64,000 nt of DNA, taken from the NCBI RefSeq assembly GCF_009663395.1, contig NZ_QKNW01000001.1:1302001-1366000 (forward strand), read 5' to 3'. Made by a program: the position numbers and the translations under genes. Source of the DNA: Halosegnis longus. GTDB taxonomy: Archaea; Halobacteriota; Halobacteria; Halobacteriales; Haloarculaceae. The notes beneath the pieces were generated by a model. That model searched no databases. It saw only the letters and a list, made by a program, of their open reading frames with translations, and had not been told where the DNA came from. Position 1 is the first letter of the stretch. Each line of letters starts with the position of its first letter. This document shows, piece by piece, positions 2,970-45,925 of this stretch.

Positions 2970-4361
2970 ATGGTACTTGACGACTTGGGGAGTTCACTCC
3001 GCGGCAGCTTAGACCAGCTGCGCGGCAAATCCCGCCTCGACGAGGAGGACGTCGAGGACATCGTGAAGGAGATACAGCGGTCGCTCCTCCAGGCCGACGT
3101 CTCCGTCGACCTCGTGATGGATCTCTCGGAGGATATCCGCCAGCGCGCACTCGACGAGGAGCCGCCCGGCGGCACCTCCGCGCGCGACCACGTCCTCCGT
3201 ATCGTCTACGAGGAGCTGGTCGACCTCGTCGGTGAGTCGACGGACCTCCCGCTCGAAGACCAGACAATCATGCTCGCCGGCCTGCAGGGGTCGGGGAAGA
3301 CGACCACCGCCGCCAAGATGGCGTGGTGGTTCTCGAAGAAGGGGCTGCGTCCGGGCGTCATCCAGACGGACACGTTCCGTCCCGGCGCGTACGACCAGGC
3401 GAAACAGATGGCCGAGCGGGCCGAGGTAGAGTTCTACGGCGAGCCGGACAACGACAATCCCGTCGAGATCGCCGAACACGGGATGGAAGAGCTGTCTGAC
3501 GTGGACGTGCTCATCGTCGACACCGCGGGTCGCCACGCCCTCGAAGAGACGCTCATCGACGAACTCGAACAGATCGAGTCCGTCGTCGAGCCGGACCGGA
3601 ATCTGCTCGTGCTCGATGCCGCAATCGGGCAGGGCGCAAAAGAGCAGGCCGACCGCTTCGACGGCGCCGTCGGCATCGACGGCGTCGCCATCACGAAACT
3701 CGACGGGACGGCGAAGGGTGGTGGTGCCCTCGCGGCCGTCGACCGCACGGACTCCTCGATTGCGTTCCTCGGAACGGGCGAGGAGGTGCAGGACATCGAG
3801 CGGTTCGAGCCGGACGGCTTCATCTCGCGGCTGCTCGGGATGGGTGACCTGAAGCAGCTCACCGAGCGCGTCGAGCGCGCGATGGAGGAGACCGGTCAGG
3901 ACGAGGACGACTGGGACCCCGAGTCGATGATGGACGGGGAGTTCACCCTCCACGATATGCGCAAGCAGATGGAGGCGATGAACAACATGGGGCCGCTCTC
4001 GCAGGTGATGGACATGATTCCGGGCCTCGGCGGCGGGCTGAAGGACCAACTCCCGGACGACGCCATGGACGTGACCCAAGAGCGGATGCGCGACTTCGAG
4101 GTCATCATGGACTCGATGACCGACGAGGAACTCCAGAACCCCCGCTCGATTTCGAAATCACAAATCGAGCGCATCGCCCGCGGCTCGGGCAAGGAGGAAG
4201 AGCAGATTCAGGAACTGCTCGAACAGCACAAGATGATGGACCGGATGATGGACCAGTTCTCCGGTATGGGCGACGGCGACATGCAGCGGATGATGAAACA
4301 GATGGGCGGCGGTGGTGGCGGTGGCGGCGGTCTCGGTGGGATGGGTCCCTTCGGCGACTGA
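2970..4361 (+). CDS. srp54: Signal recognition particle protein SRP54 (Ffh)
   Basis: The 463-residue product has the N domain, the GTPase domain with [10 protein letters not shown] (Lys110), [10 protein letters not shown] and [10 protein letters not shown], and a Met-rich M domain. The M domain holds the Gln/Met helices ([20 protein letters not shown]) and the RNA-binding [18 protein letters not shown] motif. It binds signal sequences and 7S RNA and delivers ribosomes to FtsY. The tail is an unusual Gly run (nine Gly) followed by [17 protein letters not shown] at about 2939-2946 lies 24-31 bases upstream of the ATG and fits a leaderless promoter. Confidence 0.97.
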
Positions 4362-43500: not shown

Positions 43501-43607
43501 GTGACCGCGTCGTCGCGCCGGGGGCTTCCTGTCGCTCGCAACTGGAGTCGTTCGACGAGGAGCCGGTCCATCCGGCCGTCGCGCTCGACGACGCCCTCCC
43601 CGAGTGA
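40509..43607 (+). CDS. FAD-linked oxidase fused to Fe-S (GlpC-like) module; probable D-lactate/glycolate-type dehydrogenase
   Basis: The 1032-residue protein joins an FAD-binding PCMH domain (PRGGGTSLAGQTVNEAVVLD, GAIGNNSTGAHSLVYGKTDY), an FAD-oxidase C-terminal domain (SGEHGDGRARTQWN) and an iron-sulfur module. The latter has CHGCGGCRGP, the ferredoxin motif CVGCKGCEVDCPSGVD and CCG-type cysteines (GHCHQKAKK, STCCGMAGSFGYE). Such fusions oxidise D-lactate, glycolate or related 2-hydroxy acids and pass electrons to the quinone pool at the membrane; the substrate is not fixed by sequence. TTTATATC lies about 29 bases upstream of ATG 40509, fitting a leaderless promoter. Confidence 0.9.
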   Translation: MAIHDTVPADGTDAYDYTGGEVERPDLVDDLTPLVDGDVRFDDYSRQLYATDASAYERLPIGVVLPRSTDDVAAVVAYCFDNEIPVLPRGGGTSLAGQTVNEAVVLDFSRYMDDATVDPETETATAQAGITLGKLNEAAADHGLTFGPDPAWGDKSALGGAIGNNSTGAHSLVYGKTDYYIEEAEAVLADGTVTTFGEVDIETLREAGDPTSDDIRERVYASVLRILEEERAEIDRRYPRLKRNVSGYNLDALIEDAQGTRPLADGTGTGPDSEAGTVNLARLLAGSEGTLAVVTEATVALEPEPETKAVALLTYDSLIDAMEDVAPILDHGPCAVEVMDDVLLDLAREAPEFEEVVGLLPDDTHSVLLVEFYAEDDDHGRQQVADLVADRVGDVATEVTASPDRVRTDERAYASHAMEAHDAETRATFWKMRKAGMPILLSRTSDAKHISFIEDCAIPVENLPAYVEAFQDVLDDHGTHASFYAHAGPGVLHVRPLVDTKTVEGVEQLEGIADDVTDLVVEYGGSVSGEHGDGRARTQWNRKLYGERLWGVFRELKTAFDPTWLLNPGNICGVMPDEEPDDTAVAAHDMTEDLRFSPSYEFETGFDPALEWANENGFQGMVELCHGCGGCRGPQSTTGGVMCPTYRAAEEEIQSTRGRANLLRSAMNGSLDEDELLGSEFGAEVMDLCVGCKGCEVDCPSGVDMAKMKAEVEHASHERDGPSLRDRIFANIDSLSRLGSMFAPLSNLGTKIPGVRTLMESQLGIERERDLPTFERESFATWLADRGSTVSEREADRTAIIFPDTYTNYNHPEVGKAAVRVLEAANVRVELADARDSGRPAYSKGFIDTAREEMVENARTIVPDADDKDVVLVEPSDAVMFQSDALDLVPSDHEARDYVESLADNSYGLCEYLDAFRLDENADWAGADAFAYHGHCHQKAKKKDHHAVGVLRRAGYDVSPIDSTCCGMAGSFGYETEHYSMSREIGEQLAEQVATEECDRVVAPGASCRSQLESFDEEPVHPAVALDDALPE

Positions 43608-43654
43608 GACGTTTCGTAAGGTATTCAAACGCCGCCACGAATCTGTAACTGCGT

Positions 43655-43726
43655 GTCCGGGCTGGGGTAGTGGTATCCTATCACCTTGTGGTGGTGATGA
43701 CGTGGGTTCAATTCCCGCGCCTGGAC
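43655..43726 (+). tRNA. tRNA-His (anticodon GTG)
   Basis: The sequence folds into a cloverleaf: acceptor TCCGGGC (43656-43662) pairs with GCCTGGA before the last base, the anticodon stem TCACC/GGTGA holds loop TTGTGGT with anticodon GTG, and the T arm is GTGGG TTCAATT CCCGC. An extra G at 43655 faces C at 43726, the G(-1):C73 pair that identifies tRNA-His. CCA is not encoded. No intron is seen. Confidence 0.93.
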
Positions 43727-43730
43727 TGAC

Positions 43731-43739
43731 ATTTTTTAT
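43731..43739 (+). terminator. T-rich stretch after tRNA-His
   Basis: ATTTTTTATT follows the tRNA by a few bases. A run of T on the coding strand is the usual archaeal termination signal. The same stretch begins an unusually AT-rich 120-base gap before the HNH gene. Confidence 0.45.
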
Positions 43740-43848
43740 TCGTCTGTTAGCGTCTTCTTGCAGGCCTCTGAATCCAATTTTCAGACCCAATATACAGCAC
43801 CTTACACTTACTGCATAGGATTATATTCCATGCAGAACGAACTGAATT

Positions 43849-44652
43849 ATGGCGGATTGTCCCACCTGTGGCGCGAGTCGTGATTCGTGGCAGAAGCTCC
43901 GATTACACCACATCGACGCACACGACTGCTCCCTTCCGAACCGGGAGTGTGACCGATGTGGGGAACGGTTCTTCTGTGAACACCAGCGCAAGTACTGTTC
44001 CGAGGAGTGTCGGTACGCCGAGCCAACCCGGGACCTCTCGGGCGAGAACAACCCGAACTACTCCGACGCCAAGGAGCAGACGACCTGCGAGCGATGCGGT
44101 GCGAGCTTCGAGTATTACCCGTCGGCGAAGCAAGGTCGATTCTGCGGTGACTGCGTCGCGACGAACGAGTGGCAGGAGCCGCCGGAGCTGACCGGCGAGT
44201 CGAATCCGAACTACACCGGTGGAACGGCGACCATCGCCTGCGACGAGTGTGGCGAGCCGTTCGAGCGGTATCCGGCGCAGGTGAACGAGACGGTGAATCT
44301 CTGTGGGGAGGCGTGTCGCGCCGACTGGCTCTCGACGGCGTTCACGGGCGAGGGCCACCCGAACTGGCGGGGTGGCCCGACGGGGCCGTACGGACCGGGA
44401 TGGCGCGAGGTTCGCAAGCTGGCGCTCGAACGGGACGACTACGCTTGCGTGCTGTGTGGAACCGACGCCGAGAAACTGGGACAGAACCCCGACGTCCATC
44501 ATATCATCCCGGTGCGAGCGTTTCTCGACGAGGCGCGGCTCACGGTCGCAGATGCACACACGCTCGACAACCTCTGCTCGCTGTGTGTCGACTGTCACCG
44601 GCTGGTCGAACACGGCGGCGTCGAGACCGGCATCCTCAGGGCGGCAATCTAG
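43849..44652 (+). CDS. Mosaic HNH endonuclease with zinc modules and NUMOD3-like repeats
   Basis: The 267-residue protein starts with a C2H2-like finger (CPTCGASRDSWQKLRLHHID), then three Cys-rich units: CDRCGERFFCEHQRKYCSEE, CERCGASFEYYPSAKQGRFC and CDECGEPFERYPAQVNETVN. Each is followed by a NUMOD3-like short motif: SGENNPNYSD, TGESNPNYTGG and TGEGHPNWRGG. The C terminus is an HNH nuclease (DDYACVLCGT, DVHHIIPVRAF, LDNLCSLCVDCHRL). This is the build of free-standing homing-type or phage nucleases. It lies 122 bases after tRNA-His behind an AT-rich leader and its stop overlaps the stop of the next gene, so it may be a mobile insertion. Confidence 0.88.
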   Translation: MADCPTCGASRDSWQKLRLHHIDAHDCSLPNRECDRCGERFFCEHQRKYCSEECRYAEPTRDLSGENNPNYSDAKEQTTCERCGASFEYYPSAKQGRFCGDCVATNEWQEPPELTGESNPNYTGGTATIACDECGEPFERYPAQVNETVNLCGEACRADWLSTAFTGEGHPNWRGGPTGPYGPGWREVRKLALERDDYACVLCGTDAEKLGQNPDVHHIIPVRAFLDEARLTVADAHTLDNLCSLCVDCHRLVEHGGVETGILRAAI

Positions 44653-45845
44653 TTCGTGCGACCGAGCGCCGGGCGCGGACTGTCGGTGGACCGCGAGACG
44701 GCACCGCCCTGCTTGATGATATCGAGGGCGGTCATCAGGTCTGTCCGCGAGAGGAGGCCGACGAGTTCGTCGTCTTCCATGACGAGTAAGCGACCGACCC
44801 CGGCCGCCTGCATCTGTTCGAGCGCGTCCATCGCGCCGGTCTGGGGATCGACCGACTCGATGTCGCGGCTCATCACCTCCTCGACCTGGTAGGCGTCGCG
44901 TTCGACCTCCTTGACGGACTGGGCATCGCTGAGCGTGACGACGCCGACGGGTCGGCCGTTCTCGACGACGGGGTAGCCGGTGTGGCGTTCGGTGAACATC
45001 CGGCCGAGCAGGTCGGCGACGGAGGTGTCCGGCGTGACGGTCTTGAGGTCGTCGTCGGGCGTCATGATATCGCGGACGGTCACGCCGTCGAAGGCCGCGG
45101 CCATGACGGTGCGTTGCGCCTCGGAGGAGGCACCGATGTAGATGAAGAAGGCGATGGCCACGAGGAACAGACCGCCGCCGCCGAAGAGCCCGAACAGGCC
45201 GAGCCCGATGGCGAACAGTTTGCCAACCTCGGCGGCGATTTGCGTCGCCTGCGCGTATGGCCGATTGCGCGCGAGCAGTGCACGGAGGACCCGGCCACCG
45301 TCCATCGGGAAGCCGGGGAGCATGTTGAAGATGGCCAGCGCGACGTTGACGACGGCGAGATACGCGAGCAGGAAGCGGACGGCCGCGATGGCGGTACCGC
45401 CGGGCTGGACGGCGGTAAAGGCGACGTAGGAGACGACGCCGAGCAGGACGCTGACGATGGGGCCGGCGACAGCGATGTTGAACTCCTGTTTCCAGTCTTC
45501 GGGCATCTCGCTCAGCTGGGCGACGCCGCCGAACAGCCACAGCTTGATGGAGGAGATGGGAAAGCCGTAGCGCATCGCCACGAGCGAGTGACCGAGTTCG
45601 TGGATGATGACGCCGACGAACAGTCCGACCGCGGCGAGCAGGCCGACGACGAGCGCGACGGTCGAGTCGCCGGTGAGTGCGGACACCTCGACGAGATTCG
45701 CCGGCGCGAGCACCTCGTTGATGAGCGAGGCGTACTCGCCGAGCGTGGTCCCGATGAGATACGCGAACAGCGGGAGGATGAGCAGAAACGTCAAATCGAG
45801 CTCGATGGGGATACCGAACAGTCGCCCGATTCGGAAACTTCGCAT
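44649..45845 (-). CDS. Site-2-type intramembrane metalloprotease with two CBS domains
   Basis: The 398-residue M50 protease has the zinc motif HELGH (His82, Glu83, His86) in a membrane helix and the third-ligand motif NMLPGFPMDGG (Asn174, Asp182). Several hydrophobic helices fill residues 15-240. Two CBS domains follow (VRDIMTPDDDLKTVTPDTSV and VEEVMSRDIESVDPQTGAMD), which in this family probably sense adenine nucleotides. Such proteases cleave membrane-bound regulators. ATG 45845 is preferred over the further upstream start because MRSFRIGRLFGIPIELD is the usual N terminus. Confidence 0.93.
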   Translation of the reverse strand: MRSFRIGRLFGIPIELDLTFLLILPLFAYLIGTTLGEYASLINEVLAPANLVEVSALTGDSTVALVVGLLAAVGLFVGVIIHELGHSLVAMRYGFPISSIKLWLFGGVAQLSEMPEDWKQEFNIAVAGPIVSVLLGVVSYVAFTAVQPGGTAIAAVRFLLAYLAVVNVALAIFNMLPGFPMDGGRVLRALLARNRPYAQATQIAAEVGKLFAIGLGLFGLFGGGGLFLVAIAFFIYIGASSEAQRTVMAAAFDGVTVRDIMTPDDDLKTVTPDTSVADLLGRMFTERHTGYPVVENGRPVGVVTLSDAQSVKEVERDAYQVEEVMSRDIESVDPQTGAMDALEQMQAAGVGRLLVMEDDELVGLLSRTDLMTALDIIKQGGAVSRSTDSPRPALGRTN

Positions 45846-45925
45846 ACGGGACCTAGTGCCCCCGGTCACTTAACTATCGCCGCGGCCGCCGACACCGTTT
45901 CCTCCCTCGACTGTGTCCCTCGGGT

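Follow-up and report, generated by a model that had tools for sequence, protein, structure and literature searches.

An HNH nuclease gene lies directly behind tRNA-His in the window (the whole 64,000-nucleotide stretch of DNA that was analysed, from a genome of 2.77 Mb in three contigs). We put at about 0.7 the probability that it encodes an HNH homing endonuclease of the free-standing kind, for which the 3′ edge of the tRNA-His gene serves as landing site. The gene represents one subfamily of haloarchaeal HNH nucleases linked to tRNA genes. The subfamilies sit on the 3′ side of tRNA-His, on the 5′ side of tRNA-Gln(TTG), and, inverted, on the 3′ side of tRNA-Glu(CTC), with weaker relatives at tRNA-Glu(TTC) and tRNA-Val(GAC). 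At tRNA-His the nuclease is an old resident that has decayed and been lost repeatedly; the same site is also occupied by a second lineage, which is inverted, and sister lineages reside at other tRNA genes. The family has the look of a selfish element that lands at tRNA genes, with a possible tie to the introns of archaeal tRNA genes.

We infer DNA cleavage, its target and homing itself. Homing would account for the fixed position, the optional occupancy, the decay, the existence of copies in both orientations, the recombination edge where the tRNA gene ends, and the link to an altered flank base or an intron. In this process the finger modules would recognise the tRNA-gene end together with the first flank bases in a nuclease-free chromosome, the HNH domain would then cut at the tRNA-gene end, and recombinational repair from an occupied chromosome would copy in the leader and the gene. 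The essential tRNA gene would stay whole, so that the element would cost its host little.

Protein build and immediate surroundings

The features of the locus are collected in Table 1. The encoded tRNA-His ends at C43726, and the ARAGORN coordinates take in one flank base. The nuclease ORF is on the same strand and starts 121 bases behind the tRNA, and its stop codon (44650-44652) shares bases with that of the site-2 protease ORF, which runs towards it. GC content in the 200-base windows covering 43600-43899 was 0.475-0.50, compared with about 0.63-0.70 around them. The position of the gene, its AT-rich leader and the overlapping stops, all pointed out in the first-pass annotation, were thus confirmed. 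The T-run and the TATA-like box, which lies about 25 bases before the ATG, would partly explain the AT-richness of the leader if they act as terminator and promoter. Of the 51 tRNA-His loci with an intact forward copy, 32 scored positive in a crude search for TATA boxes.

Table 1. Features at the tRNA-His locus (window coordinates)
Feature	Position	Strand	Basis or remark
tRNA-His(GTG)	43655..43727	+	ARAGORN; constant nuclease neighbour in relatives; presumed landing site
AT-rich leader	43728..43848	+	T-run 43732-43737, TATA-like box 43821-43826; block apparently exchanged relative to G084
HNH nuclease gene, 267 aa	43849..44652	+	complete ORF, own leader; outside any intron or intein
C2H2 zinc finger, residues 4-25	43858..43923	+	conserved C4 C7 H20 H21 H25
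Cys unit 1, residues 34-54	43948..44010	+	C34/37/50/54; alignments
NUMOD3-like motif 1, residues 65-71	44041..44061	+	sequence; below Pfam cut-off
Cys unit 2, residues 80-102	44086..44154	+	C80/83/99/102; alignments
NUMOD3-like motif 2, residues 116-122	44194..44214	+	sequence
Cys unit 3, residues 131-156	44239..44316	+	C131/134/152/156; alignments
NUMOD3-like motif 3, residues 167-173	44347..44367	+	sequence; weak PF07460 match ends here
HNH domain, residues 200-252	44446..44604	+	PF01844; alignments
Convergent site-2 protease with CBS domains, outside the element	44649..45869	-	M50 peptidase + CBS domains; stop overlaps

The architecture read at first pass, three Cys units alternating with NUMOD3-like motifs and ending in an HNH domain, was borne out. 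The HNH domain was called by PF01844 (22.7 bits, cut-off 21.4), and the NUMOD3 match in the Pfam scan of the protein fell below its cut-off (PF07460, 16.6 bits versus 20.4). Alignments showed that the three Cys units and the three G-x-x-x-P-N-[YW] motifs are kept in relatives. A fourth module, the N-terminal C2H2 finger (C4, C7, H20/H21, H25), is near-invariant in them. The active-site residues are intact: H217, H218, N241 and H250, which we take to have the catalytic roles of the HNH domain, are invariant in the alignments, as are C200, C203, C246 and C249. HNH was the sole catalytic domain called in the Pfam scan, and no GIY-YIG domain was present. The best profile match among solved structures was the HNH endonuclease PDB 5h0m (E 1e-8), a protein of 130 residues that matches the HNH domain and leaves the finger array uncovered; zinc-finger chains were also among the PDB profile matches. 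The predicted structure (mean pLDDT 75, pTM 0.34) adds little to the identification, with EcoKMcrA as the best Foldseek match at E 1.4e-3 and none at or below 1e-3. Two named nucleases were considered and rejected by their NCBIfam equivalog cut-offs, IscB (22.9 bits, cut-off 175) and Zorya ZorE (18.9 bits, cut-off 600).

Because tRNA 3′ ends are common integration sites (as an excerpt of PMC3119063 describes), the gene might be what remains of an element that an integrase had inserted at this one. We found no integrase between tRNA-His and the site-2 protease in the window, and no repeat of the tRNA-His 3′ end, with no shared 10-mer on either strand through window position 45000. Since, moreover, the copies at tRNA-Gln lie on the 5′ side of the tRNA, we consider such an origin very improbable.

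Occupancy of the tRNA-His site in the family

Among the 146 genomes of the family, 106 had a match to the nuclease at E 0.001, many of them weak matches to the HNH domain. The gene stood beside tRNA-His in all 29 of the 29 best other family loci, which places the adjacency beyond chance. For comparison, two tRNAs in 64 kb give an 800-base gene a chance of about 4% to fall within 200 bases of a tRNA.

We assembled 127 tRNA-His loci, from 120 genomes found by a tRNA match, six found by a nuclease match, and the window itself. Eighteen of the 146 genomes had no tRNA-His match and were left out of the set, as was G040, whose match coincides in contig coordinates with that of G041. The site was occupied in 71 loci, empty in 51, and on contigs too short to judge in five; the six loci found by a nuclease match (L173-L178) were chosen for having it, and without them occupancy was 65/121. 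The nuclease was always 3′ of tRNA-His. Forward copies were intact in 51 loci, broken in six and reduced to remnants in five, and the corresponding numbers of inverted copies were five, one and three. One locus (L075) was counted as forward-intact despite an in-frame stop near its start, and was left out of the trees. The intact forward copies start 73-135 bases behind tRNA-His, with a median of 103. Broken copies or remnants thus hold 15 of the 71 occupied sites, and intact, broken, remnant and empty sites coexist even within single genera.

The window's other neighbours are far less constant. In 23 of the 71 occupied loci the fetched stretch held none of the LDH-type oxidase, site-2 protease, cupin and helicase genes; it is therefore tRNA-His, not the neighbourhood, that is the constant, and for the same reason the interval up to the site-2 protease is not key. 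That interval had been proposed for comparison with relatives lacking the gene, and in one of the same genus (G083, locus L131) tRNA-His is followed by 77 bases and then the site-2 protease, with nothing between.

The first-pass view of an inserted single-gene element stood in part. A single gene resembling a homing nuclease does lie beside a tRNA gene, but a recent, local insertion was rejected by the occupancy of the site across genera. Presence at the same place in all related genera with vertical descent had been named as the observation that would speak against an insertion, and about half of this was found: most related genera have the gene at this place, and the forward copies for the most part track the genera. 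The sample has one genome per species, at which resolution recent gains are not visible.

An ordinary conserved gene could be kept next to tRNA-His simply by shared synteny, and the mostly vertical descent (see below) would agree with this. We give that explanation hardly any credence, since the adjacency to tRNA persists where the other neighbours differ, paralogs stand at other tRNA genes, and the chance of a gene lying within 200 bases of a tRNA is as low as given above.

Three loci of unusual layout were also seen. In L135 and L136 a second inverted HNH fragment, decayed, follows the intact inverted copy at 1168-1624 bases behind tRNA-His, which looks like two hits at one site. In L178 (G126) tRNA-His and the broken nuclease copy stand about 1.5 kb apart, with inserted DNA between them. 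Elsewhere, two tRNA-His copies lie about 1.4 kb apart in one genome (G101:C1:464874-466314).

Descent, orientation and selection

In a tree of 70 proteins, the copies at tRNA-His formed one clade (support 100/99) and the copies at tRNA-Gln grouped apart. The forward His copies largely keep to genera, with 11 label changes, from which we conclude that most of their descent is vertical. Any homing across species borders must accordingly be infrequent, or confined to close relatives. Inverted copies do not group with the forward ones of their genus: a single clade for all 18 His copies of one genus (g3), both orientations included, was rejected (p=0.0035). When rows from outside the family were added, 11 of the 13 inverted copies formed one clade spanning five families (SH-aLRT 84). 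A single inverted origin was not rejected in the family set (p=0.25), and a separate event for every inverted copy was thereby not shown.

Intact copies are under purifying selection, with dN/dS of 0.03-0.26 in 18 pairs. Long purifying selection is also compatible with a gene that serves its host. A host might keep the nuclease, sitting beside the matching tRNA, to cut incoming viruses or plasmids that use tRNA genes or their 3′ ends for integration. Both the selection and the mostly vertical descent fit such a role. So do the known integration of a 52-kb Haloquadratum island at tRNA-His (reported in the excerpt of PMC3119063) and the occurrence of short units ending in tRNA 3′ ends in 9/51 empty versus 1/71 occupied tRNA-His loci, a count uncorrected for kinship. 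However, the nuclease decays and is lost frequently, no partner gene for self-protection lies beside it, and both its two orientations and its presence at several tRNA types come about more easily by homing. We therefore regard a host-protecting role as unlikely.

Recombination edge at the tRNA end in one pair of genomes

The homing reading is also favoured by a comparison of the window with its nearest relative, G084. The two are about 92% identical on both sides of the locus and 100% identical across tRNA-His. Starting with the base directly behind the tRNA, identity is no more than 37-58% in the leader and over codons 1 to ~60, and it then recovers to about 92%. Over residues 1-65 the window protein is 46-48% identical to that of G084 and 88% identical to that of G086, whereas over the rest of the protein the values are 91% and 83%, respectively; the flanks of G086 are more distant from the window than those of G084. 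Judged from these alignments, the leader and the N-terminal finger appear to have been swapped as a block, with one edge at the end of the tRNA gene. The pair is the most extreme of 231 same-genus pairs, and as a single clear case the exchanged tract is suggestive of breaks at the tRNA.

Relatives at other tRNA genes

Of the 392 genomes from the order, 264 matched the nuclease profile at E 1e-10, as did 71 of the 95 genera. The matches listed outside the family numbered 94 down to about 280 bits, of which 24 were above 360 bits. Twenty of these 24 were fetched, and all 20 were at tRNA-His, 15 on the same strand and five inverted. Among 20 fetched from the other 70, four were at tRNA-His and sixteen lay 5′ of tRNA-Gln(TTG). 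Some of the latter tRNAs were called Lys, Glu or stop by ARAGORN because of an intron, and their sequences show tRNA-Gln.

The Gln-type copies were 5′ of tRNA-Gln(TTG) and on its strand in all 75 listed carriers (nine from the window's family, sixteen fetched, a further forty-one, and nine intronless ones placed by coordinate comparison). The window genome carries both the His and the Gln type, its second copy being L002. A third type stands inverted 3′ of tRNA-Glu(CTC) in G143 (L190) and G220 (L389), and G220 carries the His, Gln and Glu types together. As a contrast set we took 20 weaker homologs from the family, of which 12 were not near a tRNA and eight were, six of them 5′ of tRNA-Glu(TTC) and two 3′ of tRNA-Val(GAC). 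Outside the order, six sampled genomes matched, all weakly.

The fixed adjacency, on the same strand in most His loci and all Gln loci, could also mean that the protein is a partner in tRNA processing or expression, acting on the neighbouring tRNA transcript in maturation or quality control, or being co-transcribed with it. HNH domains usually act on DNA. Inverted His copies exist, the gene is on the 3′ side at tRNA-His versus the 5′ side at tRNA-Gln, and 51 of 127 genomes have tRNA-His without the nuclease. We consider a role on the transcript highly unlikely.

Two observations concern homologs at other tRNA genes. One HNH homolog (L191, G096:C3) lies within an array of many tRNA genes. In four loci (L267, L271, L281, L282) an intron was read in the tRNA-Glu(TTC) beside weaker HNH homologs, four of six read, which is too few for a test.

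Relatives in viruses

To our knowledge, free-standing homing endonucleases are known from phages. Homologs in haloviruses, a search proposed at first pass, were found: 22 of 50,697 phage records matched, 20 of them from viruses of haloarchaea and all below 60% identity. The HNH genes of HCTV-1, HCTV-5, HCTV-16 and HJTV-4 were 28-44% identical to the window protein over the matched part. They are homologous to it, but in the four regions opened they adjoin terminase, queE or tape-measure genes and not tRNA genes; they thus stand between other genes as free-standing nucleases do. A close viral donor was sought among viral contigs and rejected, since a first scan gave no relative and a profile scan listed 80 distant loci, the best at 35% identity and four with any tRNA. 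One viral metagenome contig (L284) has an HNH match at 3001-3555 between tRNA-Glu(CTC) and tRNA-His in a viral tRNA array, which is a possible vehicle for the nuclease.

What could spare the owner

The tRNA-His sequence itself was rejected as the shield, as it is often identical in occupied and empty genomes. The first flank base, in contrast, was T in 53 of 71 occupied sites and in 16 of 51 empty ones; the odds ratio was 6.4, and permutation within genera gave p=0.0005.

At tRNA-Gln the obvious candidate for a shield is an intron. The intron state could be called by match strength in 378 of the 389 genomes with a tRNA-Gln match, the 11 ambiguous ones being left out, and the intron proved patchy (188 of the 378). 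The introns that were read were about 29-51 bases long. The intron was present in 61 of 74 Gln-type carriers versus 127 of 304 non-carriers (odds ratio 6.5). For non-carriers the state was deduced from match strength, a proxy that agreed with every carrier tRNA both read directly and classified by it, and the non-carriers include genomes with copies too degraded to reach the listing. The association held in permutations within families (p=5e-5) and within genera (p=0.0018). Fourteen carriers were intronless (13 in the table plus G225, with which the intron count becomes 61/75), so that the intron is not obligatory. In four loci (L408-L411, in G225, G358, G218 and G211) an intronless tRNA-Gln beside the nuclease has an acceptor stem that is altered but keeps its pairing (AGCCCTG..CAGGGCT instead of AGTCCCG..CGGGACT) and might act as a shield in another way.

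The intron link suggests collaborative homing with archaeal tRNA introns. We tentatively raise the possibility, which we hold to be doubtful, that tRNA introns and the Gln-type nuclease form a two-part mobile system. The nuclease would cut tRNA-Gln at or near the intron site, the intron would shield the owner's own tRNA-Gln gene, and repair would carry intron and nuclease together into intronless strains; later the nuclease would decay and the intron stay behind. The tRNA-His of the His type has no intron, and there the shield would be the changed first flank base. If true, such a system would explain the patchy tRNA-Gln introns of Halobacteriales, their excess in carriers, and the commonness of genomes with the intron only.

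Archaeal tRNA introns have been proposed as protection against integrating elements (Randau and Soll, as retold in excerpts of PMC4390854, PMC4090602 and PMC3293823). If the link between nuclease and intron is causal, the question of why archaeal tRNA genes carry introns becomes directly testable, as there is a specific nuclease to work with, its target can be assayed, and genomes with and without the intron occur in nature.

Comparison with known systems

The closest working analogue is SegB of phages T4 and T6, described in the consulted parts of PMC2988022 and PMC13096335 as a free-standing homing endonuclease of the tRNA region that cuts inside tRNA genes and spreads itself together with that region. 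Like SegB, the window gene is free-standing and adjoins a tRNA gene. SegB is a phage-borne GIY-YIG enzyme, whereas the window family is chromosomal, combines HNH with zinc fingers and has one subfamily per tRNA gene; the window gene therefore stands outside the SegB family, and the likeness is by analogy. For the intron link the analogue would be F-CphI of cyanophage S-PM2, a free-standing nuclease adjoining an intron-bearing gene, in whose collaborative homing the intron prevents self-cleavage (so an excerpt of PMC6083498). It differs in having an Endonuclease VII motif, a group I intron and a psbA target, in contrast to HNH and archaeal tRNA introns here. Free-standing HNH nucleases of phages, among them those of the T4 mob genes (treated in a section of PMC2988022), likewise fuse HNH to a distinct DNA-binding part and are optional genes between conserved ones, but they are of phages, untied to tRNA genes and of other architecture. 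In a partial search of the literature we found no description of a chromosomal, order-wide archaeal family with tRNA-specific subfamilies.

Short units behind tRNA genes

A conserved stretch behind empty tRNA-His genes was considered as the end of an integrase gene and rejected, as no integrase was seen by eye in its ORFs. The stretch is part of the short units that end in tRNA 3′ ends. These units, of roughly 80-135 bases and some of them tandem, lie directly behind tRNA genes, and each ends in a copy of the tRNA 3′ end. They were found behind tRNA-His in L059, L111, L130, L132, L134, L139, L164, L165 and L167, and behind tRNA-Gln in L252, L377, L379 and L383. The units look like a miniature integrating element.
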